Below, piece by piece: positions 27,741-37,892 of a DNA stretch of 37,892 nucleotides. A model generated the notes under the pieces. The model was not told where the DNA came from. It saw only the letters and a list, made by a program, of their open reading frames with translations, and did no database searches. This stretch comes from a virus, in the IMG/VR virus record IMGVR_UViG_3300032087_005329, positions 1 to 37,892 of that record; one strand, given 5' to 3'. Numbering within the stretch: position 1 is the stretch's first letter; each line of letters begins with the position of its first letter. Position numbers and translations under genes: made by a program.

Positions 27741-29681
27741 TTAATATGGTTTATTATTAACGTTGACATAACTAGAACTTGATTTATATGTTGATCCCGA
27801 GGGATCGATACCAGAACTAATTGGATCTAATATCATTTCAATATCAGTTCTATCTAGTTGCAAATAAAGATCATGTAATCCAATTACATCATTTGAATGT
27901 GGACAAGCTGTGATTTCCATTACTGGTTGTTCATTTTTCAACTTTCCTGATGTGATGTTAATCGGATTTAGTTTTATCCTACCAGCCTTATAATCAATTG
28001 TTCCAACATTTCTTCTTCTAACAATAGGAGTTTCTGAATTTTCAGAATCTAATGAATATAATGATATATTTCCAGTTGTTCTGTTTGGTAGAGGAGTGTC
28101 GAATAAATAAACATCGTCTGCAATGTTTAAAACTTTAAATGCGGATGATTTGATATTATATCCATTCATAGATTGAATATGAAATTCATTTCCAAAATCA
28201 ATTGCATATTCGGCAAAAGAATTGATTGCTAGTCCCAAATCTCTTCTCATCTTAACATTAGTAATATTAGAAGTTATTGATTCGTGACTTTGATCAATTA
28301 TTTTTAAGAAATTACTATATTTGAATCTTGCACCATATCTATTTAACTCAGAAGATTCTGCATATTTTGTGACATTTGCTTGTACTAAAGAGGAAACTTC
28401 TGTTACTCCCTGGGCTAATGTTGAATTATAATAAACTTTACTACTTGTTTCCAAAAATAAGTATTTTAAATCTAAAATTTCAGGAACAATACCTGCCACT
28501 GCATAATTTCTTAGTTCCTGCTTTATATTTTCTTTAATCGAATTAGGAACAAAATCACCGTTTCTTGGTTTAATACTGATAAAAACTTTTCCATATTGTG
28601 GAGGAATAAGTTCCTCTCCACCAAACACAGAAACCGATTCTGCTTCAGTATAAATTTTGTTCGGAATCAATATTTCATAGTCATTTGATGTTAAAGCTCT
28701 ACCTTGTGTAGAATAAACTTGTGGGGCATACTTTCTTATCGAATCAACACTTTCGATAGGTTCTCCACCACTAGTAGATCCTCCAGTGAGAGACACTAAT
28801 GATATTCCCTCAGAAATAATATTCTCTAAAGAATTTCTTACATATGTTATTCTACCACTAAATTGTAACTGCCTAACACCATTTGCTTCTGGTCCAGAAG
28901 ATACTATGTATGAAACTTCAATTACATTTCCATCTTCGAGAAGTTTTCCAAAAATACCATCACCAAAAATAAGTTCATATTCTTCTCCAGCAATTTCTTG
29001 AATGAAGTATATTGTAGAATTTTCATTTACTACACTTCTTAAATTATTATCAAAAAGATTATCTTTTCTTACATATTCTACACTTGTTGTAGACGAAGAC
29101 GAATTCTTAACTCTTACTCTCAATGTGTTAAGATCTATTCCCACATTAGGAAGAACAAATCTTTGGCGCTTGTTTCTAGAAGAAACTTCAAATGATTGAC
29201 TAATCAGTGTTCCTTCAAATACTTCAATATCAGTGAAATTAGCCGTATCATCATAAACAGGTACTGTTATATCTTCTGGAATTGAAAATGTATATGATTG
29301 ATTTCCAAATTGAGATGTTGTCGATGCAACAGGTCCTTTCTTTAAAACTAAAGATGATGGTTTAGGGAAAGTAGTAGAGGTATCAACAAAAAAAGAAATA
29401 TTTGTTCTTGAAGATTTTCTTGATCTTGGAAGATACCCAATATTTCTTGCAAGAGCAACTACATTTTCTCTTAATGTGGCACTATCAATAAAAACCTCAT
29501 TCGATACCATATTGGCATTGTATGAGGTAATATATGTGTTATATGCCAAAACATCCAGGATCGTTGACAGATTCGATCCCTCAAAGTCATAATCGGTGAA
29601 ATTGGAATTAGCTCTTAAATAATCCCTAAGTGTTGTTTTTATCTGGTCAAAATCGAGACCAGTGAAATTTTGGAGAGGCAT
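27741..29681 (-). CDS. 6: Baseplate wedge protein gp6
   Basis: gp6 forms the continuous inner ring of the T4 baseplate that links the wedges and moves during contraction. The 646-aa product is close to T4 gp6 (660 aa). Diagnostic stretches are the N-terminal GLDFDQIKTTLRDYLRAN and NFTDYDFEGSNLSTILDVLA, then YNANMVSNEVFIDSATLREN and ARNIGYLPRSRKS. In the middle are YFIQEIAGEEYELIFGDGIF and GKLLEDGNVIEVSYI, the baseplate-J-like part, followed by LTSNDYEILI and the C-terminal beta domain. It follows gp25 by 9 nt and precedes gp7 by 12 nt, the standard wedge order. There are no large inserts, unlike its neighbours gp7, gp8 and gp14. Confidence 0.95.
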   Translation of the reverse strand: MPLQNFTGLDFDQIKTTLRDYLRANSNFTDYDFEGSNLSTILDVLAYNTYITSYNANMVSNEVFIDSATLRENVVALARNIGYLPRSRKSSRTNISFFVDTSTTFPKPSSLVLKKGPVASTTSQFGNQSYTFSIPEDITVPVYDDTANFTDIEVFEGTLISQSFEVSSRNKRQRFVLPNVGIDLNTLRVRVKNSSSSTTSVEYVRKDNLFDNNLRSVVNENSTIYFIQEIAGEEYELIFGDGIFGKLLEDGNVIEVSYIVSSGPEANGVRQLQFSGRITYVRNSLENIISEGISLVSLTGGSTSGGEPIESVDSIRKYAPQVYSTQGRALTSNDYEILIPNKIYTEAESVSVFGGEELIPPQYGKVFISIKPRNGDFVPNSIKENIKQELRNYAVAGIVPEILDLKYLFLETSSKVYYNSTLAQGVTEVSSLVQANVTKYAESSELNRYGARFKYSNFLKIIDQSHESITSNITNVKMRRDLGLAINSFAEYAIDFGNEFHIQSMNGYNIKSSAFKVLNIADDVYLFDTPLPNRTTGNISLYSLDSENSETPIVRRRNVGTIDYKAGRIKLNPINITSGKLKNEQPVMEITACPHSNDVIGLHDLYLQLDRTDIEMILDPISSGIDPSGSTYKSSSSYVNVNNKPY

Positions 29682-29690
29682 TTAACTCAC

Positions 29691-30092
29691 TTATCTAGTT
29701 GGTAAGAGGACGAATTGTAAACTTTGTGGATCTATATCGGCACCAATAATTCTATATGAAATGGTAACATCATAATTATGATTATCATAATCTGGAATCA
29801 CCTTTACATTTATAAGTTCAACTCTCGGTTCATATCTATTAATTGATAATGTAATCTCATCCTTAATTGCAATTGCATTCACAGGATCCATATTTTCAAA
29901 TAATATTCGAGATACTCTAGAACCAAAGATAGGATCAAAAACTTTTTCGCCACGTTCAGTAAATACAATATTCCGAACGGATCTTGCAATTGCATTCTCA
30001 TTTTTGAGCGCAATTAGATCATCATTAACAGGATTTCTGAAAAATCCCATACTAATGTCTTTAAATCCTTGACTAACTCTCTCTAGAGGCAT
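29691..30092 (-). CDS. 25: Baseplate wedge protein gp25 (lysozyme-like fold family)
   Basis: gp25 links the inner wedge to the sheath and nucleates sheath polymerisation; it is one of the most conserved contractile-tail proteins. The 133-aa product (T4: 132 aa) has DDLIALKNENAIARSVRNIV-like sequence and the signature TERGEKVFDPIFGSRVSRIL followed by FENMDP near residues 48-73. The C-terminal strand PRVELINVKVIPD is followed by a YDVTISYRI beta hairpin. It is the first gene of the late baseplate operon seen here, with an AATAAATA box 23 nt upstream. Despite historical naming, this family has no catalytic lysozyme motif. Confidence 0.95.
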   Translation of the reverse strand: MPLERVSQGFKDISMGFFRNPVNDDLIALKNENAIARSVRNIVFTERGEKVFDPIFGSRVSRILFENMDPVNAIAIKDEITLSINRYEPRVELINVKVIPDYDNHNYDVTISYRIIGADIDPQSLQFVLLPTR

Positions 30093-30114
30093 TTAAAATA
30101 AAAGATCTTAACCT

Positions 30115-30122
30115 TATTTATT
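30115..30122 (-). promoter_or_regulatory. Late-promoter-like box AATAAATA before gp25
   Basis: The minus strand reads CTAATAAATAAGG, 23 nt before the gp25 ATG. It would be the main late promoter for the wedge genes, which have only 5-20 nt gaps and no further late box between gp25 and the DUF4815 gene. Confidence 0.5.
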
Positions 30123-30131
30123 AGAGATTTA

Positions 30132-30157
30132 TTGAGTTATTTTTTTAAAATACTCAA
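30132..30157. repeat. AT-rich inverted repeat between gp25 and the 226-aa gene
   Basis: TTGAGT and ACTCAA arms flank an A/T-rich centre that can extend the pairing to about 11 bp with one bulge. It lies in the 119-nt gap where the small-gene region meets the late operon. It may be a weak transcript-end or stabilising hairpin. It lacks the GC stem and U-tract of a normal terminator. Confidence 0.35.
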
Positions 30158-30211
30158 TTATTTTGATTTGTTTTGTCAAAAATCATTAAAATGTCCTGGT
30201 CCACAAGAAAT

Positions 30212-30892
30212 TTAACCATTTTCAAGCATTTCGGCATCTTTTTTTAACTTTTCTTCGGGTGTTTCCCAAAAATATTCATCAGTATCACCTAATCGACCCC
30301 AGTCAACATCATTTTCGACCTCATAATACTCCGTAGATACCTTAAAATCGGGTATTTTAGCTTCTGATGGTGTTAATGAGATGTCATAAACGCGACAACG
30401 GTTGTTTGGATATAGTGCATATTGCCCATTTTCAAGTTCAATGAGGTTAAATGACTTATGTTCCTGTGGAATCTCACTTGTACTGTAGTCAATCTCATTC
30501 GCACTATGATGATAATTGTCTAAAGTGCAAATATATGACCCATTAAGTGTTCCAAAATTCCTTGTTCTAATTTCCCAACGCATTGAACCAGTGAATTGCT
30601 TATGAATATTAGTGACTCCATAATCCATACAATTCCAAAACTGAAGGTTAGGTAAGTCAAGGTCAGGAGAAGGCAGCTCAGGGCGACTACAGAAGGCACT
30701 GATGGGCAATTTATCAAACATTGCCGCATACTCTGGTAGATAAGTCTCAAAATAAAAAGCACGTCCAGGTATGGACTTTGCCGATACCCAAACGCCTTCT
30801 ACAAATTCACCATGTCCATCTTGTAAATCACGTAAGTATTCCTTACGAACCCATACTTTTTGTGCAGGTAAATTTACAATTAACTCACTCAC
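30212..30892 (-). CDS. Conserved cyanophage protein of unknown function (226 aa)
   Basis: The start is a GTG at 30892 that overlaps the stop of the 44-aa gene (GTGA), a classical coupling junction. The product is soluble, rich in aromatic and acidic residues, and opens SELIVNLPAQKVWVRKEYLR. Later features are FWNCMDYGVTNIHKQF, MRWEIRTRNFGTLNGSYICT and LDNYHHSANEIDYS; the C terminus is acidic (EEKLKKDAEMLENG). It has no signal peptide and no membrane segment. I recognise no fold or catalytic motif. It lies just before the baseplate operon and after a glycosyltransferase-like gene, but its transcript looks separate from the late genes. Confidence 0.85.
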   Translation of the reverse strand: MSELIVNLPAQKVWVRKEYLRDLQDGHGEFVEGVWVSAKSIPGRAFYFETYLPEYAAMFDKLPISAFCSRPELPSPDLDLPNLQFWNCMDYGVTNIHKQFTGSMRWEIRTRNFGTLNGSYICTLDNYHHSANEIDYSTSEIPQEHKSFNLIELENGQYALYPNNRCRVYDISLTPSEAKIPDFKVSTEYYEVENDVDWGRLGDTDEYFWETPEEKLKKDAEMLENG

Positions 30893-31023
30893 CTTCCTTG
30901 ACCCCTATACCTCTTCTTTTTACCATTACGAGAAGACGCTGCAAGTTTAGTATATTGAGACGAGCCTTGACGAGTTTTTTTAGGCTTACCCTCAACATAA
31001 GAACCACCTTTCATCATTGCCAT
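30889..31023 (-). CDS. Small basic protein (44 aa)
   Basis: The frame from ATG 31023 to TGA 30889-30891 encodes MAMMKGGSYVEGKPKKTRQG, then SSQYTKLAASSRNGKKKRYR and GQGR. Lys and Arg make up a large share and acidic residues are almost absent. A strong Shine-Dalgarno (CAGGAGAAAG) lies 4 nt before the ATG, which supports the gene despite its size. Its stop overlaps the GTG start of the next gene. The composition suggests nucleic-acid or ribosome binding; this is inference. Similar tiny basic proteins recur in T4-like cyanophages to my recollection. Confidence 0.82.
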   Translation of the reverse strand: MAMMKGGSYVEGKPKKTRQGSSQYTKLAASSRNGKKKRYRGQGR

Positions 31024-31047
31024 AATACTTTCTCCTGTAAATAAAAA

Positions 31048-31818
31048 TCAAATAATACGAGTTTTTTCATGTCCAACACGAATTCGAGGATCACACCAAA
31101 TCTCAAATCCTTCATCCTTTGCATCAAGACAGAATGAGACATCCTCACCACACATGTCTTGTACATTTCCAGATTCAAAGACTTGCATCTTCGGTGCAAA
31201 CCATGGATACTCAAGATTCTCAAAAACTCCCTTCTTAATCAATACCCATCCAAATCCTGTGTAGTCCACCGTGAATGGTTTCTTACGCTTGGACATTGAT
31301 TCGACAGTTTCGTGATTCATCACTCCACCATTCTTACGGAAATCATCTTCTTCTAACCAGTGTGCGACAGATGTAGTTTGACCATCCTCTGTGGCATACC
31401 ACCCAGCAGTAATCTCTCGTTCTGTGCCATCTTCAGATAATGCAAGATCACACAACTGCCAGAATTTGTTAGCATCAAATACAATATCACTATCAATCCA
31501 TAACTGATAGTCATAATCTAACTTACCATCCCAAGGAACTTGCTTTGGTCCACGAAGTACATTTGCTCCAAGTACCTTGCAACGTGCAAAGTTAACCATT
31601 GAACTATAATCTTGACTGATCTGAATGGCCATACCATTCTGTACCATATCAAAACATAGTTGTACAAAGTTCTTCAGAAAGATATATGAACATCCTCGTC
31701 CTGGAAGACAAAATACAATCGTCTTTCCCCTCATACGTTCCTTAATTGCAGGAATGTCAAAATCAGGTTTTGATTCCTTCTTTGGTGCTACAGTTTTTAC
31801 AGTAAATCCTTTTGCCAT
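31048..31818 (-). CDS. GT-A-fold glycosyltransferase-like protein (256 aa)
   Basis: After a basic N terminus, TIVFCLPGRGCSYIFLKNFV (residues 33-52) gives a first Rossmann-like strand and helix. YQLWIDSDIVF (104-114) carries a DSD motif, the DxD metal/nucleotide-sugar signature of GT-A enzymes. Later are TAGWYATEDGQ, FTVDYTGFGWVLIKKGVFE (182-200), CGEDVSFCLDAKDEGF (223-238) and RIRVGHEK, where E225, D226 and H250 match the usual acceptor-base and metal-binding positions of family-2-like transferases. It would move a sugar from a nucleotide donor to DNA, protein or surface glycan; the acceptor cannot be read from the sequence. A TTGACT-17-TAGAAT promoter lies directly upstream. Confidence 0.8.
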   Translation of the reverse strand: MAKGFTVKTVAPKKESKPDFDIPAIKERMRGKTIVFCLPGRGCSYIFLKNFVQLCFDMVQNGMAIQISQDYSSMVNFARCKVLGANVLRGPKQVPWDGKLDYDYQLWIDSDIVFDANKFWQLCDLALSEDGTEREITAGWYATEDGQTTSVAHWLEEDDFRKNGGVMNHETVESMSKRKKPFTVDYTGFGWVLIKKGVFENLEYPWFAPKMQVFESGNVQDMCGEDVSFCLDAKDEGFEIWCDPRIRVGHEKTRII

Positions 31819-31841
31819 AATGGAAATAAACTTTCAGTTCA

Positions 31842-31870
31842 ATTCTAACAGATTATATATGTTCAGTCAA
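31842..31870 (-). promoter_or_regulatory. Sigma70-type promoter for the glycosyltransferase-like gene
   Basis: On the minus strand TTGACT (31865-31870) and TAGAAT (31842-31847) are 17 nt apart, each one base from consensus. The predicted start is about 15 nt before the ATG at 31818. It would be read by the host polymerase, independent of the late boxes. Confidence 0.72.
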
Positions 31871-31882
31871 GACCAAGGTCCG

Positions 31883-32086
31883 TCAATACGAAGGTGAATC
31901 GTAAGGTCCTCCTCCGTGCTCACTTAAAAATACAGCTTCCTCATAACTTAAATCTTCCGTTGTATAATCTGTCTTCATTAATCCTACCATACTATTCAAT
32001 TGATTCCAAGTCCTTCGAAATTCTTCCTCCTTTAATGAATGAAATATACATTTATTCTTTGCATATATGTGATATATTTTTTCCAT
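31883..32086 (-). CDS. Conserved small protein (67 aa)
   Basis: The product opens MEKIYHIYAKNKCIFHSLKE and continues EEFRRTWNQLNSMVGLMKTD, then DLSYEEAVFLSEHGGGPYDS. It is soluble and mixed charged, probably alpha/beta, with no membrane segment. A Shine-Dalgarno (GAGG) lies 5 nt before the ATG at 32086. The pattern fits small phage proteins found near the end of early gene blocks, but I assign no function. It stands alone between the terminator at 32171-32198 and the promoter at 31842-31870. Confidence 0.75.
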   Translation of the reverse strand: MEKIYHIYAKNKCIFHSLKEEEFRRTWNQLNSMVGLMKTDYTTEDLSYEEAVFLSEHGGGPYDSPSY

Positions 32087-32170
32087 AGGGTCCTCAAAAA
32101 TTTTTTCGGAATTTTTTTTTACTCAATTTATTTTACATCTTAAAATTATATATCAAATTTTATAAAAACT

Positions 32171-32198
32171 AAAAAAGGGACTTCTCAGCCCCTCAAAA
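32171..32198 (-). terminator. Intrinsic terminator after the seven-codon ORF
   Basis: The minus strand reads AGGGGC-TGAGAA-GTCCCT followed by six T. The stem is 6 bp with one G-T pair and a 6-nt loop. An A-rich run upstream makes it potentially bidirectional. It ends the short transcript from the promoter at 32343-32371 and any read-through from the 51-aa gene. Confidence 0.75.
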
Positions 32199-32206
32199 TT
32201 TTTTTT

Positions 32207-32230
32207 TCAGTTTTTATATTTAGCTCGCAT
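32207..32230 (-). CDS. Seven-codon mini-ORF MRAKYKN with strong ribosome binding site
   Basis: ATG at 32230 is preceded by AGAGGTGA at 4 nt spacing, one of the best Shine-Dalgarno matches in the window. The ORF encodes MRAKYKN and stops at TGA 32207-32209, 8 nt before the terminator stem's A/T-rich approach. It is the only ORF with a ribosome site on the ~165-nt transcript predicted between the promoter and the terminator. It may be a micropeptide, a leader peptide, or a site that loads ribosomes onto a regulatory RNA. Confidence 0.45.
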   Translation of the reverse strand: MRAKYKN

Positions 32231-32342
32231 TTTGTCACCTCTGTAGGTTAGGGTAGTGATGGATTTTTATATACGGGGACAACGCCCGCCGGGCGATATC
32301 AACGAACCGCATAAATCACTGCTCATTCACTGATATAAACTC

Positions 32343-32371
32343 ATTATAATACGGGAAGAGACTGTTGTCAA
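32343..32371 (-). promoter_or_regulatory. Perfect sigma70 promoter TTGACA-17-TATAAT
   Basis: On the minus strand TTGACA (32366-32371) and TATAAT (32343-32348) match consensus at all 12 positions with the ideal 17-nt spacer. The predicted start is near 32335. The first ORF downstream with a good ribosome site is the seven-codon one, and a terminator follows about 165 nt later. Confidence 0.85.
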
Positions 32372-32393
32372 CTCCCCGCACGGAAACTATCAA

Positions 32394-32549
32394 TCAGAAC
32401 GCAAAATCGGCACTGATAGCAGCATAATGCTCTGCACAATCCTGAATATTATCATCTTCAATATCAGAGACGATCACATCCAGAATTGCCAAGATATCGT
32501 TGCCAGTGTTACCTTGACGGAGCATACCAAGTGCAGTTTCGCGAGTCAT
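32394..32549 (-). CDS. Conserved small acidic protein (51 aa)
   Basis: The frame from ATG 32549 to TGA 32394-32396 encodes MTRETALGMLRQGNTGNDIL, AILDVIVSDIEDDNIQDCAE and HYAAISADFAF. It is acidic, probably all-helical, and has no membrane segment. The opening resembles small proteins I recall from T4-like cyanophages, with no known function. It is the last gene of the unit that starts at the promoter 33213-33241, and the strong promoter of the next unit begins 19 nt beyond its stop. Confidence 0.72.
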   Translation of the reverse strand: MTRETALGMLRQGNTGNDILAILDVIVSDIEDDNIQDCAEHYAAISADFAF

Positions 32550-32622
32550 AATAACGAGAGAAAAGTGTAAAGAACTGATAGAGAGTTTATTGACATCTCC
32601 AGGTCAATTTGCTAAACTGATA

Positions 32623-32880
32623 TCAGAGTTCTTCTAACATTTCATTCAGTTCAGTGATATCAAGCTCACTGTCCTGCCAGTTAACACCATCAGGAGTATT
32701 AGGTCCATAATGTTCAACTAACACGTGTGACAGAGACTTATAACCATGATGACGATAACCACGGGCAAGGTGATACAAAACCTCAGCATTACCTAACCAA
32801 AGTGCTACATTCCAGGTCTCATAATTCGCCCACCCGTTGTAAGTGGTATCGGTGAGATTAGACTTCAAAGTTGATGTCAT
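32623..32880 (-). CDS. DUF7249-like small phage protein (85 aa)
   Basis: The central YNGWANYETWNVALWLGN is the signature of a small phage and bacterial family (DUF7249-like) of unknown function, usually written as WxNYETWNVALW. I start it at the ATG at 32880, giving 85 aa; an in-frame TTG at 32931 would add 17 residues of ordinary-looking leader and is less likely. The C terminus is acidic (DSELDITELNEMLEEL). The 88-nt leader between the GGGCCC element at 32968-33000 and the ATG contains a perfect 14-bp palindrome. Confidence 0.8.
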   Translation of the reverse strand: MTSTLKSNLTDTTYNGWANYETWNVALWLGNAEVLYHLARGYRHHGYKSLSHVLVEHYGPNTPDGVNWQDSELDITELNEMLEEL

Positions 32881-32906
32881 AAGACTGATAATTAACGGTG
32901 ACTGAT

Positions 32907-32920
32907 GATCAGATCTGATC
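32907..32920. repeat. Perfect 14-bp palindrome GATCAGATCTGATC
   Basis: The palindrome lies in the 88-nt leader of the DUF7249-like gene. It contains two GATC sites and a BglII-type AGATCT core. It could bind a dimeric regulator or be a coincidence of local sequence. Confidence 0.45.
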
Positions 32921-32967
32921 TTGAGATTCAATCGGTGAGGTGTCAGTGGGTCCGTCCGATTGCGTCC

Positions 32968-33000
32968 CTTATACTACTAGAACACTTTACAGGGCCCACT
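32968..33000 (-). promoter_or_regulatory. GGGCCC intergenic element, copy 1 of 6
   Basis: On the minus strand it reads AGTGGGCCCTGTAAAGTGTT then CTAGTAGTATAAG. It begins about 9 nt after the stop of the 57-aa gene and precedes the DUF7249-like gene, with a longer leader (88 nt) than the other copies. Confidence 0.65.
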
Positions 33001-33009
33001 GTTTATAAC

Positions 33010-33183
33010 TCACCAAAAGTCCGGTGTGCTCAAATCCTCCACATAAGCTGTCACCTTCTCTGCCGGTTCCAGCTCAAAGAGTTTCTCCCAATCAAGCTGG
33101 TGCGGGTCGAAGTCATGCATTACATCAAGCTCAAGAGTAATGCGATAACGCTGTTTCTGTGCCTGGCGATAAGCAACTGACAT
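33010..33183 (-). CDS. Small conserved protein (57 aa)
   Basis: The frame from ATG 33183 to TGA 33010-33012 encodes MSVAYRQAQKQRYRITLELD, VMHDFDPHQLDWEKLFELEP and AEKVTAYVEDLSTPDFW. The pattern of a basic start, a beta strand RITLELDV and an acidic C-terminal part is intact and codon-like. It is the first gene after the consensus promoter at 33213-33241, with a leader of about 20 nt and no clear Shine-Dalgarno. Function unknown; small DNA- or protein-binding roles cannot be told apart. Confidence 0.72.
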   Translation of the reverse strand: MSVAYRQAQKQRYRITLELDVMHDFDPHQLDWEKLFELEPAEKVTAYVEDLSTPDFW

Positions 33184-33212
33184 ATCTTTGGGGGGATTTG
33201 AGTGACTTTTAT

Positions 33213-33241
33213 AGTATAATCTAACAGAGCATATCTGTCAA
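33213..33241 (-). promoter_or_regulatory. Sigma70-type promoter TTGACA-17-TATACT
   Basis: TTGACA (33236-33241) and TATACT (33213-33218) on the minus strand are separated by 17 nt; only one of 12 positions deviates from consensus. It would start a transcript about 20 nt before the 57-aa gene and drive it with the DUF7249-like and 51-aa genes. Confidence 0.8.
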
Positions 33242-33362
33242 GTCATTGCAGGTATTTATCAGAATCATTATGATTTTTATAAGTCTTATTTCTGGAAATT
33301 CTGACATCGGGGGGTTGACAATTTCTCGGTGGTGTGATAAGCTGACGCACGGTAAGATCACA

Positions 33363-33450
33363 AGGTCTGGACACATTTATCAGAACATAATTACCAGGTC
33401 CGGAAGGATTTAGAAGAACATAATCACCAAGGTCTGAACACATTAAAACC
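33363..33450. repeat. Imperfect 33-bp tandem repeat (about 2.7 units)
   Basis: Units at 33363-33395 and 33396-33428 share AGGTCnGGA...GATTTA/CATTTA...AGAACATAATnACC, and a partial third unit starts at 33429 (AAGGTCTGAACACATT). The 33-bp period keeps the reading frame of a minus-strand ORF, giving GDYVLLNPSGP and GNYVLINVSRP, but no start or ribosome site supports a gene. Confidence 0.6.
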
Positions 33451-33520
33451 ACAAATAAGACCCTTAAATATACTCTACAGATACTGGCAAGATACCACAG
33501 AGTCACTCTATTTTCCTTAT

Positions 33521-33535
33521 TGATAATGATTCTCA
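33521..33535. promoter_or_regulatory. Fur-box-like site
   Basis: TGATAATGATTCTCA matches the 7-1-7 Fur consensus TGATAATnATTATCA at 13 of 14 fixed positions. It lies in gene-free DNA about 280 nt before the promoter at 33213-33241 and 55 nt past the terminator of the 114-aa gene. No promoter is evident right at the site, so function is uncertain. Confidence 0.4.
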
Positions 33536-33590
33536 TTAACAAAGCTATATTTTTTAATACATTTTTAATACAAAATTAACACAAAAACAT

Positions 33591-33620
33591 AAAAAAAGAG
33601 GGGTTTTTTGCCCTCTTTAT
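33591..33620 (-). terminator. Intrinsic terminator after the 114-aa gene
   Basis: On the minus strand AAAGAGGG and CCCTCTTT form an 8-bp stem around an 8-nt A-rich loop, followed by a run of seven T that overlaps the stem end. It lies 22 nt past the stop of the 114-aa gene and closes the right-hand small-gene unit. Confidence 0.85.
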
Positions 33621-33642
33621 GTGTTATTGTAATAATGCAGCT

Positions 33643-33987
33643 TCAGGCAAACATGAAACCATCAGTGAACTCGAAAGTGTTATAAACCTTGGAAGTTCCT
33701 GCTTGTCCGATGAACTTATCAACATACCATTTGAAGTTCTTTTGATACACACACTCACCATCAATTGCATGTTCTTTGAGAATAGCATTCAGACGGGATT
33801 TGGTGGTATTGGATTGCCGACCTCCATCAAAGATCTGAATATAATTATCACCAACCTCTGCAATCTTGTTGCCGTGCAGATACACATGAGAGACACCATT
33901 GTCATCACAAACAACACTGGTGTTTGCAGATTGCCAGGACTTGTTGTTAGAAATGGCATCGTTCATTTGTTGTTCGATCTTACGCAT
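33643..33987 (-). CDS. Conserved phage protein (114 aa), function unknown
   Basis: The product begins MRKIEQQMNDAISNNKSWQS and continues SHVYLHGNKIAEVGDNYIQI, then TKSRLNAILKEH and VYQKNFKWYVDKF. This series, with a VYLHGNxIA strand, an NTTKSRLNA helix and an xxWYV strand, recurs in small proteins of many tailed phages, with no assigned function that I know. It is soluble. GGGCCC element copy 2 lies 24 nt upstream and an intrinsic terminator follows. Confidence 0.82.
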   Translation of the reverse strand: MRKIEQQMNDAISNNKSWQSANTSVVCDDNGVSHVYLHGNKIAEVGDNYIQIFDGGRQSNTTKSRLNAILKEHAIDGECVYQKNFKWYVDKFIGQAGTSKVYNTFEFTDGFMFA

Positions 33988-34010
33988 TGTTTTTTTGTTC
34001 AGTGATTGTG

Positions 34011-34043
34011 CTTACACTACAGGGACACTTTCAGGGGCCCAGT
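34011..34043 (-). promoter_or_regulatory. GGGCCC intergenic element, copy 2 of 6
   Basis: On the minus strand it reads ACTGGGCCCCTGAAAGTGTC then CCTGTAGTGTAAG. It starts 5 nt after the stop of the 101-aa membrane protein and ends 24 nt before the ATG of the 114-aa gene. Confidence 0.7.
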
Positions 34044-34048
34044 AATGA

Positions 34049-34354
34049 TTAGTCTTGTGAACCATACCAACACAGAAGACCAATAATCACTGCAGTAGGT
34101 ATAGCAATCCACCACCATTCGATGAGAACCCAGAGTGCAACTACAATCGCAATAAGTGTAAAAGAACCACCAATGTTCAAATCAGAATTTGATGATGAAT
34201 TACCTGAGTTTACCTCTCGAAGGTTAATAATTTGTTCAGCACCATAGATTCTTTCAAACTGTTCATATGCCCCATTACGGGTGTTAGATTGCACTTCAAG
34301 TTCTTGATACCCAGATGAAGAACCTAACCAACATTTAGCACGATAAGTTGCCAT
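34049..34354 (-). CDS. Small membrane protein with N-terminal soluble domain (101 aa)
   Basis: Residues 1-50 (MATYRAKCWLGSSSGYQELE, TRNGAYEQFERIYGAEQIIN) form a small soluble alpha/beta domain that resembles the repeatable phage pattern YRAKCWxG..YQxxEV. A Ser/Asn linker follows, then two closely spaced hydrophobic segments near 62-78 and 83-97 (FTLIAIVVALWVLIEWWW, IPTAVIIGLLCWY) that probably make a hairpin in the host inner membrane. No lysis or enzyme motif is seen; it could be a small superinfection or membrane-remodelling factor, but that is a guess. Confidence 0.78.
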   Translation of the reverse strand: MATYRAKCWLGSSSGYQELEVQSNTRNGAYEQFERIYGAEQIINLREVNSGNSSSNSDLNIGGSFTLIAIVVALWVLIEWWWIAIPTAVIIGLLCWYGSQD

Positions 34355-34426
34355 AATTAGAATACAAATTAGGGGCGCGACTCGACTCGAAAAACCTCGG
34401 AAGATTTCGGAGAGAAGAGAAAAGAA

Positions 34427-34588
34427 TTAACCTCCGAACATATCATCGAAGAGTTGTTGAGAATCACGATCTAATTGTTCACGATTGTCTTGTATCCAAC
34501 GCTGTTCATTTTGCATTCGTTGAATAGCAAGTTCACGGGTTAATCCATCGTGCATGATGATTTTACCGTTAGGGAGTTGATGTAACAT
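34427..34588 (-). CDS. Small helical protein (53 aa)
   Basis: The frame from ATG 34588 to TAA 34427-34429 encodes MLHQLPNGKIIMHDGLTREL, AIQRMQNEQRWIQDNREQLD and RDSQQLFDDMFGG. The middle is a charged, Gln-rich helix, likely coiled-coil-forming, and the C terminus is acidic. It starts 2 nt after the stop of the 55-aa gene, so it is probably translated from the same RNA. No family recognised. Confidence 0.7.
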   Translation of the reverse strand: MLHQLPNGKIIMHDGLTRELAIQRMQNEQRWIQDNREQLDRDSQQLFDDMFGG

Positions 34589-34590
34589 AA

Positions 34591-34758
34591 TCAGGCAGTA
34601 AGTTTGAAAATTTGAGTGATCTTTGCATCAATCGAATCAGCAATGTTTGCTTCTTCGTCACCATAATCAGCATAATCTTTCATTGCAGAAGAGATAGCAT
34701 CCCACTCACAATCAGTGAAGAGTTGACGATAGATAGAAGCATTGAGTTGTTGAGACAT
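34591..34758 (-). CDS. Small acidic protein (55 aa)
   Basis: The frame from ATG 34758 to TGA 34591-34593 encodes MSQQLNASIYRQLFTDCEWD, AISSAMKDYADYGDEEANIA and DSIDAKITQIFKLTA. It is soluble, acidic and probably helical. GGGCCC element copy 3 ends 20 nt before the ATG, and no Shine-Dalgarno is visible, a feature shared by several genes behind this element. Function unknown. Confidence 0.7.
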   Translation of the reverse strand: MSQQLNASIYRQLFTDCEWDAISSAMKDYADYGDEEANIADSIDAKITQIFKLTA

Positions 34759-34777
34759 TTGAGAGAGTTGTTTCGTT

Positions 34778-34810
34778 TCTATACTACTGAAACACTTTAA
34801 GGGGCCCAGT
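34778..34810 (-). promoter_or_regulatory. GGGCCC intergenic element, copy 3 of 6
   Basis: On the minus strand it reads ACTGGGCCCCTTAAAGTGTT then TCAGTAGTATAGA. It begins 5 nt after the stop of the 66-aa gene and ends 20 nt before the 55-aa gene. Confidence 0.7.
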
Positions 34811-34815
34811 GTTTG

Positions 34816-35016
34816 TTATCGAACAACATCATAAGAGAATGACTTGACAAACCATCCGGTGTTGTCACTAATCACATCACAAAGATCATCCTCATTTGTT
34901 GCATCCCATAGACAAGCTTTGGCACCTTCGATCACTTCATTCTGTTCCTCCAATGTAATGTCTTCATAATCAAAATCAAACTCAATATCAGTAATCTTGT
35001 AGAATTTCATCATCAT
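34816..35016 (-). CDS. Small acidic protein (64-66 aa)
   Basis: Three ATG codons in a row (35016, 35013, 35010) offer starts; GAGGA just upstream gives the best spacing to the second or third. The product continues KFYKITDIEFDFDYEDITLE and EQNEVIEGAKACLWDATNED, then DLCDVISDNTGWFVKSFSYD. It has a strand-rich start and a helical acidic middle, typical of small phage proteins with YDVVxxxxG-type C-terminal strands. It overlaps the end of the 51-aa gene by up to 29 nt in another frame. Function unknown. Confidence 0.76.
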   Translation of the reverse strand: MMMKFYKITDIEFDFDYEDITLEEQNEVIEGAKACLWDATNEDDLCDVISDNTGWFVKSFSYDVVR

Positions 35017-35143
35017 TGTCCTCGTAAATTAAACTTGTGCGGTGATGTCCATCAATCAATTCATAAGTCCATTGTTCACTATCATCATGATAGTAAGCAT
35101 CAAATTTAGACCATGAATTGCCATTACAAAATGATGTTTTCAT
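34988..35143 (-). CDS. Small acidic protein (51 aa)
   Basis: The frame from ATG 35143 to TGA 34988-34990 encodes MKTSFCNGNSWSKFDAYYHD, DSEQWTYELIDGHHRTSLIY and EDNDDEILQDY. Its start overlaps the stop of the 23-aa ORF (ATGA) and its end overlaps the next gene, so it sits in a tight string of coupled genes. It looks like a small beta-rich domain with an acidic tail. The overlap means its last ten codons also encode the ribosome site of the next gene. No family recognised. Confidence 0.62.
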   Translation of the reverse strand: MKTSFCNGNSWSKFDAYYHDDSEQWTYELIDGHHRTSLIYEDNDDEILQDY

Positions 35144-35211
35144 TTGGATTCCTTTGATTTGGGTTCTTTCGTTGGTTTTGGTTTAGTCCAGTAATCTTTG
35201 TAAATTGACAT
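35140..35211 (-). CDS. Very small basic ORF (23 aa)
   Basis: The frame from ATG 35211 to TGA 35140-35142 encodes MSIYKDYWTKPKPTKEPKSK plus ESK, a Lys/Pro-rich peptide. Support comes from position only: it fills the gap between two genes and its stop overlaps the next start as ATGA. There is no clear Shine-Dalgarno. It may be a leader for coupling rather than a functional protein. Confidence 0.42.
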   Translation of the reverse strand: MSIYKDYWTKPKPTKEPKSKESK

Positions 35212-35224
35212 GTTTTGAGAGTTA

Positions 35225-35449
35225 TCAATCCTCCAACAATTGTGGGTAATACTCTTCGACTTCTTCGACAATTTCATCAACTGAATACTTGTCATAGCTT
35301 TCAGACATGTAATCATATAAGCAAGAATACATCGTCTTCAAATCCATATCATCCAGAATCTGATTGATAAGATTGGATTGTAATTCGTCACGGTTGATGA
35401 TGTTGTCAGTCATGGAATTAGTATGATCAAAGGTGGAAACAAATGACAT
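35225..35449 (-). CDS. Small acidic protein (74 aa, or 62 aa from an inner ATG)
   Basis: The ATG at 35449 overlaps the preceding stop as TGATG, which argues for coupling; a second ATG at 35413 would give 62 aa starting MTDNIINRDELQ, and the extra 12 residues look unconserved. The rest (LINQILDDMDLKTMYSCLYD, SYDKYSVDEIVEEVEEYYPQ, LLED) is acidic and helical with Tyr-rich faces and may form a compact helical bundle. It resembles other small acidic proteins in this cassette. Function unknown. Confidence 0.72.
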   Translation of the reverse strand: MSFVSTFDHTNSMTDNIINRDELQSNLINQILDDMDLKTMYSCLYDYMSESYDKYSVDEIVEEVEEYYPQLLED

Positions 35450-35640
35450 CAGTTAGCAGGAAAGTTTTTGCAAACAGCATCACACAATATCCTTACAAGT
35501 TCTTCGTCATAATTGACATCGTACTGTGAAAAGTATTCAGTGATGATACAATCAATGTCCTCCATCAATTGTTCACGTTGAGAAAGCATTTCGAGACGAT
35601 CCATCATTTTATTGTGAAGATAAGATTGAATAATTGACAT
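35449..35640 (-). CDS. Small helical protein with duplicated N terminus (63 aa)
   Basis: The product begins MSIIQSYLHNKMMDRLEM, identical to the first 18 residues of the gene just upstream; the DNA of this segment is duplicated (35587-35640 and 35773-35826). The rest is its own: LSQREQLMEDIDCIITEYFS, QYDVNYDEELVRILCDAVCK, NFPAN, an acidic helical sequence that resembles the downstream 74-aa protein in general style. It starts 6 nt after the stop of the upstream gene and ends in a TGATG junction. Function unknown. Confidence 0.72.
   Translation of the reverse strand: MSIIQSYLHNKMMDRLEMLSQREQLMEDIDCIITEYFSQYDVNYDEELVRILCDAVCKNFPAN
35587..35640. repeat. 54-bp direct repeat, copy A
   Basis: This covers the first 18 codons of the 63-aa gene and differs from copy B (35773-35826) at one position, a G/A change in the Glu codon. 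The copies are 186 bp apart, so a recombination between them would delete or fuse one gene. Confidence 0.85.
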
Positions 35641-35646
35641 GTGAAG

Positions 35647-35826
35647 TCATTTGTACTTTGAAGGTCGAAGTTTAAGAGTATTAAGATCGATAACCATGAC
35701 AGGTTCTTTCTTGATTTTGATTGAATCAAAGAACTCTTTGCGTTCTTTCTCTGCGAATACACTTTTAGAAAACATTTCAAGACGATCCATCATTTTATTG
35801 TGAAGATAAGATTGAATAATTGACAT
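35647..35826 (-). CDS. Small basic-ended protein with duplicated N terminus (59 aa)
   Basis: The frame from ATG 35826 to TGA 35647-35649 starts MSIIQSYLHNKMMDRLEM, shared with the next gene, then diverges to FSKSVFAEKERKEFFDSIKI, KKEPVMVIDLNTLKLRPSKY and K. The second half is basic with a VMVIDLNTLKLRPSKYK tail that reads like the end of another small protein. One reading is that the repeated start was copied onto, or replaced the start of, a different gene. It begins directly after the stop of the 83-aa gene (TGA-ATG). Function unknown. Confidence 0.66.
   Translation of the reverse strand: MSIIQSYLHNKMMDRLEMFSKSVFAEKERKEFFDSIKIKKEPVMVIDLNTLKLRPSKYK
35773..35826. repeat. 54-bp direct repeat, copy B
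   Basis: This covers the first 18 codons of the 59-aa gene. The match to copy A at 35587-35640 extends a few bases further with one more mismatch, then stops abruptly in both genes. Confidence 0.85.
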
Positions 35827-36078
35827 TCAGCAAGCAAGACCCATTGCAGAATTAAAGAGTTGTGGAATCATCGAATCATCAGTGACTTGATAACCATAAC
35901 CCTTCACACGAGAATCAACCTCACGTTGAAAATCTTTCTTGTTGATGTAAGATTTGGATTGAGTTGCACCAATAAAAGTAACAACCTTGAGCATCAAACG
36001 ATTGTGAATCTCACCGTCTGCAAATTTGACGGGATAGAAATCAACAACCATGTTACCATCTTTGGAAGTGAGTTGCAT
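35827..36078 (-). CDS. Conserved small protein (83 aa)
   Basis: The product MQLTSKDGNMVVDFYPVKFA continues DGEIHNRLMLKVVTFIGATQ, SKSYINKKDFQREVDSRVKG and YGYQVTDDSMIPQLFNSAMG. A beta-rich first half and a helix with a Lys/Arg face (INKKDFQREVDSRV) suggest a small alpha/beta domain. GGGCCC element copy 4 ends 19 nt before the ATG. Its stop is immediately followed by the start of the 59-aa gene. Function not recognised. Confidence 0.76.
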   Translation of the reverse strand: MQLTSKDGNMVVDFYPVKFADGEIHNRLMLKVVTFIGATQSKSYINKKDFQREVDSRVKGYGYQVTDDSMIPQLFNSAMGLAC

Positions 36079-36096
36079 GACTGAAATAACGAACGA

Positions 36097-36129
36097 CTTA
36101 CACTACTGAAACACTTTCAAGGGCCCACT
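36097..36129 (-). promoter_or_regulatory. GGGCCC intergenic element, copy 4 of 6
   Basis: On the minus strand it reads AGTGGGCCCTTGAAAGTGTT then TCAGTAGTGTAAG. It begins 5 nt after the stop of the 50-aa gene and ends 19 nt before the 83-aa gene. Confidence 0.7.
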
Positions 36130-36134
36130 CATTA

Positions 36135-36287
36135 TCAATCAGGAAATTGTGCAATCTTTGCATCAGCAAGTGCTGCAATCATAGTCCAAACTTTCTCTCC
36201 ACTTAACATATACTCATTACAAATATATTCAACGGAATCCTCAATGGTTTCCATCACTTCAAGAGCTTCGAGTTCAGTTTCGTTCAT
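36135..36287 (-). CDS. Small acidic protein (50 aa)
   Basis: I start it at the ATG at 36287, giving MNETELEALEVMETIEDSVE, YICNEYMLSGEKVWTMIAAL and ADAKIAQFPD. A longer reading begins at a TTG at 36338 inside the preceding gene and is less likely. The sequence is acidic and helical with Met/Ile-rich faces, perhaps a small helical bundle or inhibitor-type protein. No family recognised. Confidence 0.68.
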   Translation of the reverse strand: MNETELEALEVMETIEDSVEYICNEYMLSGEKVWTMIAALADAKIAQFPD

Positions 36288-36327
36288 GATCAAAAAATGT
36301 GTGTGAATCGTTTGTGTGTTGCTTTGG

Positions 36328-36492
36328 TCATTCTTCAACAGTGATAGAGTGAATCACAAAGTTAGGATAAAGTCGATTACATGTTGCAATCGCATCCTCT
36401 TTTGTTTCTTTGATGTAACCTAAACAATCATTCATGATCCAACCATTGTCACGATGAAATTGACCATGAAGAAGAAACTTTGATTCTTGCAT
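36328..36492 (-). CDS. Small conserved protein (54 aa)
   Basis: The frame from ATG 36492 to TGA 36328-36330 encodes MQESKFLLHGQFHRDNGWIM, NDCLGYIKETKEDAIATCNR and LYPNFVIHSITVEE. The arrangement strand, helix with AIATCNRLYPNF, strand (VIHSITVEE) resembles short proteins common in phages that have a helix followed by YPxxxVxSIxxE. GGGCCC element copy 5 ends 15 nt before the ATG. Function unknown. Confidence 0.7.
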   Translation of the reverse strand: MQESKFLLHGQFHRDNGWIMNDCLGYIKETKEDAIATCNRLYPNFVIHSITVEE

Positions 36493-36506
36493 TTTTCTGA
36501 ACTGTG

Positions 36507-36540
36507 CTTACACTAATGAGACACTTTAAGGGGGCCCACT
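36507..36540 (-). promoter_or_regulatory. GGGCCC intergenic element, copy 5 of 6
   Basis: On the minus strand it reads AGTGGGCCCCCTTAAAGTGT then CTCATTAGTGTAAG, one base longer than most copies. It overlaps the stop of the 47-aa gene and ends 15 nt before the 54-aa gene. Confidence 0.7.
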
Positions 36541-36682
36541 ATTTGAAACTCCCATTCACTCCAATAACTTTAGCAGTGGGATTTCGTGCTAATGCTGTCT
36601 CCCTTGCATCTTGTGCATCTCGTGCATAAACTTCTTCGGTAAATACCTTTCCTGCAACATACAGTTTCACATCCCATTTCAT
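36539..36682 (-). CDS. Small protein (47 aa)
   Basis: The frame from ATG 36682 to TAG 36539-36541 encodes MKWDVKLYVAGKVFTEEVYA, RDAQDARETALARNPTAKVI and GVNGSFK. It looks like a small beta-alpha-beta unit: strand KLYVAGKVFTEEVYA, helix with DAQDARETALARNP, strand AKVIGVNG. This pattern recurs in small phage proteins with unknown roles. Its start overlaps the stop of the membrane protein gene as ATGA, so the two are probably coupled. Confidence 0.7.
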   Translation of the reverse strand: MKWDVKLYVAGKVFTEEVYARDAQDARETALARNPTAKVIGVNGSFK

Positions 36683-36909
36683 GATACAGTCACTCCTAAA
36701 TTGAAAAGTTTGCTAGTTGAAATGATCAAAAGAAATGCCAACATAATTACAACATCCCATGACTTTGTTCGTATAAAGAATGGAATGGAAATTGCATCGG
36801 CAATGAAGTGCATCAGAACTCCAAATGTTACATTTACATGTAAAACAACAAAATAAGCAGAAACAACCAGAAAGCTTCCGATAATTCGACCTACAATGTC
36901 AATTCTCAT
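36679..36909 (-). CDS. Small membrane protein (76 aa)
   Basis: I use the ATG at 36909, 2 nt after the stop of the preceding gene; a GTG at 36915 would overlap that stop as GTGA and add two residues. The product (MRIDIVGRIIGSFLVVSAYF, VVLHVNVTFGVLMHFIADAI, SIPFFIRTKSW, DVVIMLAFLLIISTSKLFNL) has about three hydrophobic stretches near 8-24, 26-46 and 51-67, so it is an integral membrane protein. The role is unknown; placement with other small early-type genes suggests host membrane modification. Confidence 0.76.
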   Translation of the reverse strand: MRIDIVGRIIGSFLVVSAYFVVLHVNVTFGVLMHFIADAISIPFFIRTKSWDVVIMLAFLLIISTSKLFNLGVTVS

Positions 36910-36911
36910 GG

Positions 36912-37229
36912 TCACACAAGTTGTGCTAATGTTTTCTTGTTTAGAATAGAAAATGCTCGGTAATAAGCATCCAACCAGTTATCATAAACTCCAAGTGTTT
37001 TTGTGGTTGATGATAACACATTTCCATTCTCATGATATGCAGTAACTTCAGTGAAAGTTACAGCAAATTGATCAACACTTTCACCATCAACATATGGTGC
37101 AGAATGTATGATCGCAATGTCATCATCTTCCAGCAGACGATAAACAGAACGAGTGTTCATGTGATGAGCACGAACTTCAGTGCCCCAATACTCTTCAAAT
37201 TTGATTCCTTGACGGAAAAGTGTTGTCAT
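36912..37229 (-). CDS. Conserved small protein (105 aa)
   Basis: The start used is the ATG at 37229 (MTTLFRQGIKFEEYWGTEVR), which puts the start 25 nt after GGGCCC element copy 6, like the other genes; ATGs at 37244 and 37256 are possible, but the last overlaps the element. Later are RSVYRLLEDDDIAIIHSAPY, DGESVDQFAVTFTEVTAYHE and LGVYDNWLDAYYRAFSILNK. The sequence suggests a mixed alpha/beta domain with a Tyr-rich helix (WLDAYYRAFSIL). No known family. Confidence 0.74.
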   Translation of the reverse strand: MTTLFRQGIKFEEYWGTEVRAHHMNTRSVYRLLEDDDIAIIHSAPYVDGESVDQFAVTFTEVTAYHENGNVLSSTTKTLGVYDNWLDAYYRAFSILNKKTLAQLV

Positions 37230-37253
37230 CTTGTTTTCTTTCATAGTGGTCTT

Positions 37254-37284
37254 CATACAACTAGGACACTTTAGAGGGCCCAGT
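37254..37284 (-). promoter_or_regulatory. GGGCCC intergenic element, copy 6 of 6
   Basis: On the minus strand it reads ACTGGGCCCTCTAAAGTGTC then CTAGTTGTATG. Unlike the other copies it overlaps the 3' end of the upstream gene: the last residues of the 63-aa protein (TGPSKVS and the stop) are encoded inside it. Confidence 0.65.
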
Positions 37285-37452
37285 AATGTGAAGCAATGAA
37301 TGGATTCTGTTTATGATGTCCTCACACTTATCAAAATACTCCTCACTTTCATCCAATAAAAATGCTTCCTGTTCGATAGCATCAATCACAATGTGCCACT
37401 GCTCATCTGTTAGAAAGTCTCTGATAGCTTGCATCTCTTGATCATTTTCCAT
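37261..37452 (-). CDS. Small acidic protein (63 aa)
   Basis: The product is MENDQEMQAIRDFLTDEQWH, IVIDAIEQEAFLLDESEEYF, DKCEDIINRIHSLLHITGPS and KVS. It is acidic and helical, with amphipathic helices that may dimerise. The final residues TGPSKVS fall in GGGCCC element copy 6, so the protein's natural end may have been extended by insertion of that element. A promoter-like TTGCAA-17-TACAAT lies just upstream. Function unknown. Confidence 0.72.
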   Translation of the reverse strand: MENDQEMQAIRDFLTDEQWHIVIDAIEQEAFLLDESEEYFDKCEDIINRIHSLLHITGPSKVS

Positions 37453-37460
37453 TTTTCTTT

Positions 37461-37489
37461 ATTGTAGTTTGAGAAATTGACACTTGCAA
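37461..37489 (-). promoter_or_regulatory. Possible sigma70-type promoter TTGCAA-17-TACAAT
   Basis: TTGCAA (37484-37489) and TACAAT (37461-37466) on the minus strand have a 17-nt spacer. The -10 differs at one position from consensus and the -35 at two. It lies just after the metallopeptidase-like gene and before the 63-aa gene. Confidence 0.45.
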
Positions 37490-37892
37490 CTATGTTAAGA
37501 TTTCATTACAGTACAGATTGTAGAGTCTTTCTTCTTCCTCTCGTGCTTCAATTTCATGTGGTTGATCTTCATAGTCATAGATTTCCACTGGTTCTTGTGA
37601 ATAACACAATTTTCCATATCGGTGTCGTAGATCACCTCTTACCCATTGTGCAAGATGAGTCAATTCATGTAAAAGAGTTTTTATATACAACTCCTTACAC
37701 ATATCGGTCTGAAGTTCAATCAGGAAGTGTCTTGGTCGATAAGAAGGACCAACTACATCACAATACCCCAGTACATTTTCACGTCTCAATCCACGATGTA
37801 AAATATCCACATCAATCTTATGACGTGGATAATACTTCTTCAGAAACCAAGAGGTAACACTCTCACAGAGCTTTTTAGAATAACCGTATCCA
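37490..37892 (-). CDS. HExxH metallopeptidase-like (SprT-type) protein, 5' end beyond window
   Basis: The frame is open to the right edge, so the N terminus is missing; 133 residues are visible. They read ...GYGYSKKLCESVTSWFLKKY and YPRHKIDVDILHRGLRRENV, then CDVVGPSYRPRHFLIEL. The motif LLHELTHLAQW gives HELTH, the zinc-binding HExxH of SprT/gluzincin-type proteins. RGDLRHRYGKL and DYEDQPHEIEAREEEERLYN follow, where a Glu or His may be the third ligand. Such proteins are common in T4-like cyanophages. Substrate is unknown; SprT-like roles in host protein cleavage are one possibility. A GTG at 37810 would be an internal start and is not needed. Confidence 0.78.
   Translation of the reverse strand, partial: GYGYSKKLCESVTSWFLKKYYPRHKIDVDILHRGLRRENVLGYCDVVGPSYRPRHFLIELQTDMCKELYIKTLLHELTHLAQWVRGDLRHRYGKLCYSQEPVEIYDYEDQPHEIEAREEEERLYNLYCNEILT

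Follow-up and report, generated by a model that had tools for sequence, protein, structure and literature searches.

The minimal T4 origins oriF, or ori(uvsY), and oriG, or ori(34), span ~100 bp and consist of a promoter and an A+T-rich unwinding element, and the transcript made from the promoter primes replication via an R-loop (PMC3016281). The T4 origins share little sequence among themselves (PMC3016281). For the cyanomyovirus Syn9, a single theta origin has been predicted, as cited in the available text of PMC2984593, which does not give its position. Noncoding RNAs have also been described in this group of phages. The CfrI antisense RNA of S-PM2 is ~225 nt long and antisense to psbA and a homing endonuclease gene (available text of PMC2984593 and PMC5931967), and the manA, wcaG, and PhotoRC-II motifs, which are structured RNAs tied to gene classes, occur in marine T4-like cyanophages (PMC2864571). 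The locus described here belongs to a noncoding DNA element that recurs across the Kyanoviridae, once per genome. Like oriF and oriG, it is a unit of ~100-200 bp in which, in the window and many relatives, a promoter is followed by A+T-rich DNA, and it lies close upstream of gene 25, the gene that oriF adjoins in T4. It differs from them in that its promoter is of the sigma70 rather than the MotA type, in being present once where T4 has several origins, and in carrying a GC block and a ~20-nt invariant core, neither of which is described for T4. With the predicted Syn9 origin it shares the occurrence of one site per genome. CfrI is comparable as a short noncoding transcript of a cyanomyovirus, but its position is unrelated to that of the element, which is intergenic and precedes the baseplate module; unlike manA, wcaG, and PhotoRC-II, the element has no Rfam match, covariation, or linked gene family. 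We found no description of the core sequence in phage in the openly available literature searched, and a prior description is possible; the available text of the cyanophage genome papers, a review, and the transcriptome papers does not describe the element.

The window, by which we mean the entire 37.9-kb record IMGVR_UViG_3300032087_005329 (37,892 nt), belongs to a T4-like marine cyanophage of the Kyanoviridae, and all features of the element lie on its minus strand. The original prediction placed here a strong promoter, a GC-rich hairpin, a seven-codon ORF, and a terminator, and checking the sequence confirmed that each is present where it had been placed. The promoter (TTGACA-17-TATAAT, 32343..32371, with TTGACA at 32371-32366 and TATAAT at 32348-32343) matches the sigma70 consensus at 12/12 positions and is the sole perfect match within 28000-37892; transcription from it is predicted to start at ~32336. 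It is followed by an RCAGT box (GCAGT, 32318..32322) located 70 nt ahead of the core reference point, a GC block of ~20 bp and ~80% GC (CGCCCGGCGGGCGTTGTCCCCG, 32274..32295) that contains the hairpin sequence CGCCCGGCGGGCG (32295-32283), an A-tract (TATATAAAAA, 32264..32273) in a bin of 8% GC, and the near-invariant 20-nt core recognized from cyanophage matches (ACTACCCTAACCTACARAGG / ACTACCCTAACCTACAGAGG, 32257-32238), within which RNAalifold predicts a small hairpin, ACCU-ACAG-AGGU (32237..32248). An AT-rich stretch 3' of the core (32195..32222), picked out by the GC content of relatives, is a candidate unwinding region. The ORF encoding MRAKYKN (ATG CGA GCT AAA TAT AAA AAC TGA, 32230-32207) has AGAGGTGA 4 nt ahead of its ATG, and the intrinsic terminator, GAGGGGCTGAGAAGTCCCTT plus a T tail (32194-32175), is, like the ORF, nearly private to the window phage and one near-identical contig, L116. 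The predicted RNA (~32336-32171, ~166 nt) folds at -39.9 kcal/mol, only slightly better than its shuffles (z -1.67), and no tRNA was found in the window element. Elsewhere in the window, a second strong sigma70-like promoter (TTGACA-17-TATACT, 11/12, 33241-33213, minus strand) lies ~870 nt upstream of the first, before small ORFs, and a symmetrical hairpin, AAAGAGGG...CCCTCTTT (33595-33618), located between small genes, is terminator-like on both strands.

A sensitive DNA search with 311 bases around the window element matched 103 records, all of them cyanophages by name except one marine virus, and the matches fell almost entirely within unannotated gaps. In the ten relatives that were read, the shared part was TATATAAAAAnnnnnnACTACCCTAACCTACARAGG, and neither the ORF nor the terminator was shared; the ATG is replaced in relatives, for example by CAGAGGTGACAATTCGACC. 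Two consensus queries of 68-69 nt, run at E<=10 against 50,697 phage records, matched 297 and 325 records at 298 and 326 places, again cyanophages and the same marine virus record, and no other phage among these records matched even at this threshold. The element is thus effectively present once per genome (326 places in 325 records). A 13-mer of the core has a single occurrence in every one of ten complete cyanophage genomes and likewise in Syn9, at 53506, while its count is zero in T4 and in the podovirus P-SSP7; in P-SSM2 the element is at ~69.1 kb. Overall, 11/12 complete Kyanoviridae genomes carry a single copy, the exception being S-PM2, which lacks the 13-mer and has a diverged version at the same place (~25.1 kb) with a CAGT box, a 15/16 GC block, and TACCTAAGCTATAAACGTTTCCCAGAGCG. 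A 45-position profile was trained on the complete-genome sites with Syn9 left out; the lowest training site scored 35.6 and Syn9 17.8, and the next best site elsewhere in those genomes scored -2.7. A scan for the layout from GC block to A-tract alone proved too strict. In IMG/VR, the 18-mer core was found in at least 120 stretches, and 112 loci were kept from those listed after sequences more than 88% alike had been dropped. Given that these loci were chosen by an exact core match, the conservation of the core is to be judged from the genomes found by BLAST, and the statistics on the flanks are unbiased by the choice. The sequence 3' of the core divides the 112 listed loci into three classes, AGAGGTGACA (66 loci), AAAGGT (24), and AAAGTGTTAC (21), with one other; class 3 is P-SSM2-like.

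The conserved unit, which the original prediction did not single out, consists of the RCAGT box, the GC block, the A-tract, and the 20-nt core, and the full order is promoter, RCAGT box, 80% GC block, 8% GC A-tract, core, and AT-rich DNA. Sigma70 promoters matching at 10/12 positions or better precede 53/105 listed loci compared to 7% of control segments, which is beyond chance, with the -10 box mostly at a distance of 77-90 nt from the core. The original prediction was right to see a strong promoter of early type acting on a functional segment that holds no ordinary gene. Classes 1 and 2 are enriched for the promoter and class 3 lacks it, with 58%, 87%, and 0% of the listed loci of the three classes (0/19 in class 3) having one within 300 nt compared to 12.7% of 270-nt controls. 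In class 3 loci such as L007, L012, L061, and L097, an TTCGTTCGTGA motif is repeated before the GC block at about -110..-60 from the core, sometimes twice, and may replace the promoter. The RCAGT box occurs at -110..-25 in 95% of the listed loci, in all classes, compared to 18% of controls, and lies mostly 40-75 nt before the core. By position, the 112 listed loci average 80% GC at -30..-21, 8% at -20..-11, and 20-27% at +30..+70, and the AAAA of the A-tract is nearly invariant in the profile. In 9/10 complete genomes, the GC block falls within the top 0.8% of 12-bp windows by stability, and its composition is rare in 8/11 (at most 0.33% of 16-bp windows); in P-SSM2 (35.5% GC), it is the sole 16/16 GC site in 252 kb. 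Its sequence varies from phage to phage. The AT-rich region falls within the bottom 7% of 50-bp windows by stability in 7/10 genomes, P-SSM2, DSL-LC02, and Syn9 being those in which it is not.

We considered whether the element acts through RNA. The GC-rich hairpin had been noted as part of the predicted transcript, but the GC block showed no excess of folding on either strand compared to control segments (mean z -0.76 versus -0.77, n = 112 listed loci), which argues that its composition is kept rather than a hairpin. Together with its extreme stability, this points to properties of the DNA or of a hybrid. RNAalifold predicts a core hairpin of 4-6 bp, ACCU-ACRA-AGGU, in every class, in class 3 in a shifted register (UAAC..GUUA) with a bulge, and its covariation term is 0. 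A structured noncoding RNA is not supported, as the upstream z equals that of the control, the covariation term is 0, and the stem test around the A-tract, at z 2.0, is unconvincing; a mutual-information signal of covariation stemmed from the three sequence classes. No Rfam family matched the window or 11 relatives at gathering level, and the weak hits were far below threshold (rliG, rejected, at 23 bits versus 55).

The layout proposed for the window phage likewise held only in part among relatives, with the promoter recurring in two of the three classes and the terminator and ATG failing to recur. The ATG is at the same offset in 4/113 listed loci, among which is a near-identical relative, and neither the start codon nor the frame is conserved, so a translated micropeptide is not supported. 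The MRAKYKN ORF is probably incidental, as judged from the sequence, and the element has no coding potential. The terminator occurs in 2/111 listed loci compared to 4% of controls, which does not support a closed promoter-to-terminator unit or a discrete small RNA gene, even though the promoter is present in classes 1 and 2. Conservation is not confined to a promoter within a long transcript either, since conservation is much stronger in the core than in the promoter, which one sequence class lacks. That the micropeptide or the ~165-nt closed unit functions in the window phage alone, as the well-placed AGAGGTGA before the ATG and the terminator shared with L116 could suggest, is highly improbable, since both are missing in almost all relatives despite the kept core.

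A trans-acting early noncoding RNA, made in abundance from the strong promoter, whose invariant, single-stranded CUACCCUAACCUACARAGG would recognize some RNA or protein of the host or the phage and alter, for example, translation or RNA turnover, is a serious rival explanation, if a rather unlikely one, and has several points in its favor. Most class 1 and 2 copies among the listed loci have strong early-type promoters, usually 77-90 nt upstream, the small hairpin is predicted in the core of all three classes, and the class 1 sequence AGAGGUGA resembles a Shine-Dalgarno sequence and might base-pair to the 3' end of 16S rRNA. However, classes 2 and 3 have other sequence in place of AGGUGA, class 3 has no sigma70 promoter, the terminator is not conserved, the upstream part has neither excess RNA structure nor covariation, and Rfam gives no match. 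In addition, no cyanobacterial genome contained the 17-mer or its complement; cellular genomes overall gave 9 chance-like matches.

The surroundings of the element are consistent from phage to phage in position and variable in gene content. It occupies one syntenic place at the border of early and structural genes, after a cluster of small ORFs of unknown function, with gp25 or the first large structural gene no more than a few kilobases downstream. In the window, the order downstream is a 67-aa gene of unknown function with a PHROG match (phrog_2626, 31883..32086, minus strand), a 256-aa gene (phrog_1574), phrog_3704, gp25, a baseplate wedge gene serving as landmark for the conserved location (29691..30092, minus strand; phrog_261, E 4e-54), and a second baseplate wedge gene. 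The phrog_3704 gene (30212-30892, minus strand), an auxiliary gene listed as ferredoxin, has no Pfam match. The structural module of the window also contains two giant ORFs of 4333 aa (14727-27728) and 2653 aa (5189-13150), both on the minus strand, which are probably virion or fibre proteins. Across the listed loci, the first downstream ORF belongs to five unrelated families or is one of 14 singletons, and DSL-LC02 and a few contigs have a convergent ORF as the next long one. That the downstream genes vary or are convergent argues against a gene-specific leader, such as an mRNA leader or riboswitch. These same findings weigh against a role in cis, in transcription or RNA processing, at the early/late boundary, in which the nascent RNA or the DNA core would govern read-through, pausing, antitermination, or cleavage as RNA synthesis enters the baseplate genes. 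Such a role would suit an element that, read in the sense direction, comes after the small-ORF cluster and before the structural module, with an early promoter ahead of most class 1 and 2 copies and the next start codon within ~100 nt of the core in many listed loci. It has to contend, however, with the lack of a 3' terminator to be read through and with an A-tract that reads TATAAAAA, not the cyanophage late promoter NATAAATA (available text of PMC2984593), and we regard it as a serious but unlikely rival. The late promoter was itself rejected as an identity for the A-tract, in which the T at the seventh position is not conserved.

An element that is noncoding, present once, and independent of the neighboring genes, with a GC clamp, an A-tract, and an invariant core, looks like a cis-acting DNA site. 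Single copy, GC-block composition, an invariant core, and variable neighboring genes would also be in keeping with another DNA site kept once per genome, for packaging, recombination, or the binding of a phage DNA protein. We consider this quite improbable, given that it leaves the strong promoters unexplained and that T4-like phages package by headful and have no strict site. Because a promoter is present, a replication origin is the most economical cis-acting site, and we tentatively propose as the best explanation, by analogy, that the element may start replication in the manner of T4 ori(uvsY) and ori(34), a reading we hold to be a substantial possibility somewhat short of probable. Under this proposal, within minutes of infection host RNA polymerase with sigma70 would initiate at the strong early promoter, and the transcript would elongate across the GC block and A-tract. 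The RNA would then remain hybridized, or the duplex would open around the A-tract, core, and AT-rich region, and DNA synthesis toward the late genes could be primed by the RNA 3' end or by a primase-made primer in the core. Cyanomyoviruses lack motA according to the available text of PMC2984593, so an origin promoter in these phages would need to be of another type. Since the core is nearly invariant and the T4 origins are dissimilar, a sequence-specific factor that T4 does not require would be needed, which counts against the analogy. The more specific proposal that the Kyanoviridae have one dedicated, sequence-specific origin of new layout (RCAGT box, GC clamp, A-tract, and CTACCCTAACCTACARAGG core), used by a phage factor without a T4 counterpart, is possible and rather doubtful.

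Several observations count against an origin. The element and T4 oriF lie on opposite sides of gene 25, and the oriF primer runs away from the gene; class 3 has no sigma70 promoter within 300 nt (0/19 listed loci), and the AT-rich region is ordinary in P-SSM2, DSL-LC02, and Syn9. GC skew at 4-fold sites showed no step at the element in 11 genomes, which also counts against it, but some active T4 origins are not at shifts in strand composition (PMC3016281), and a skew step is therefore not strictly defining; cumulative GC, AT, and keto skews were uninformative, being dominated by one-sided gene orientation. A strong top-strand bias of GTT was seen at -80..-20 in class 1 and 3 loci, and its direction reverses inside the core. 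GTT, the T4 primase start site (PMC10359460), occurs at 4.96 per 100 nt compared to 0.62 on the other strand across all listed loci, and upstream its top-strand frequency shows a 3-fold enrichment. The bias was not seen in the class 2 complete genomes, and GTT is thus a lead only.

In summary, few viruses of marine Synechococcus and Prochlorococcus are commoner than the Kyanoviridae, and a single-copy, near-invariant noncoding site common to hundreds of their genomes is a precise experimental target, for which we tentatively infer a function in replication. If the element instead acts as RNA, the family would possess a noncoding RNA of very wide conservation. Either way, it provides a short, family-specific DNA marker at a place that is blank in current annotations.
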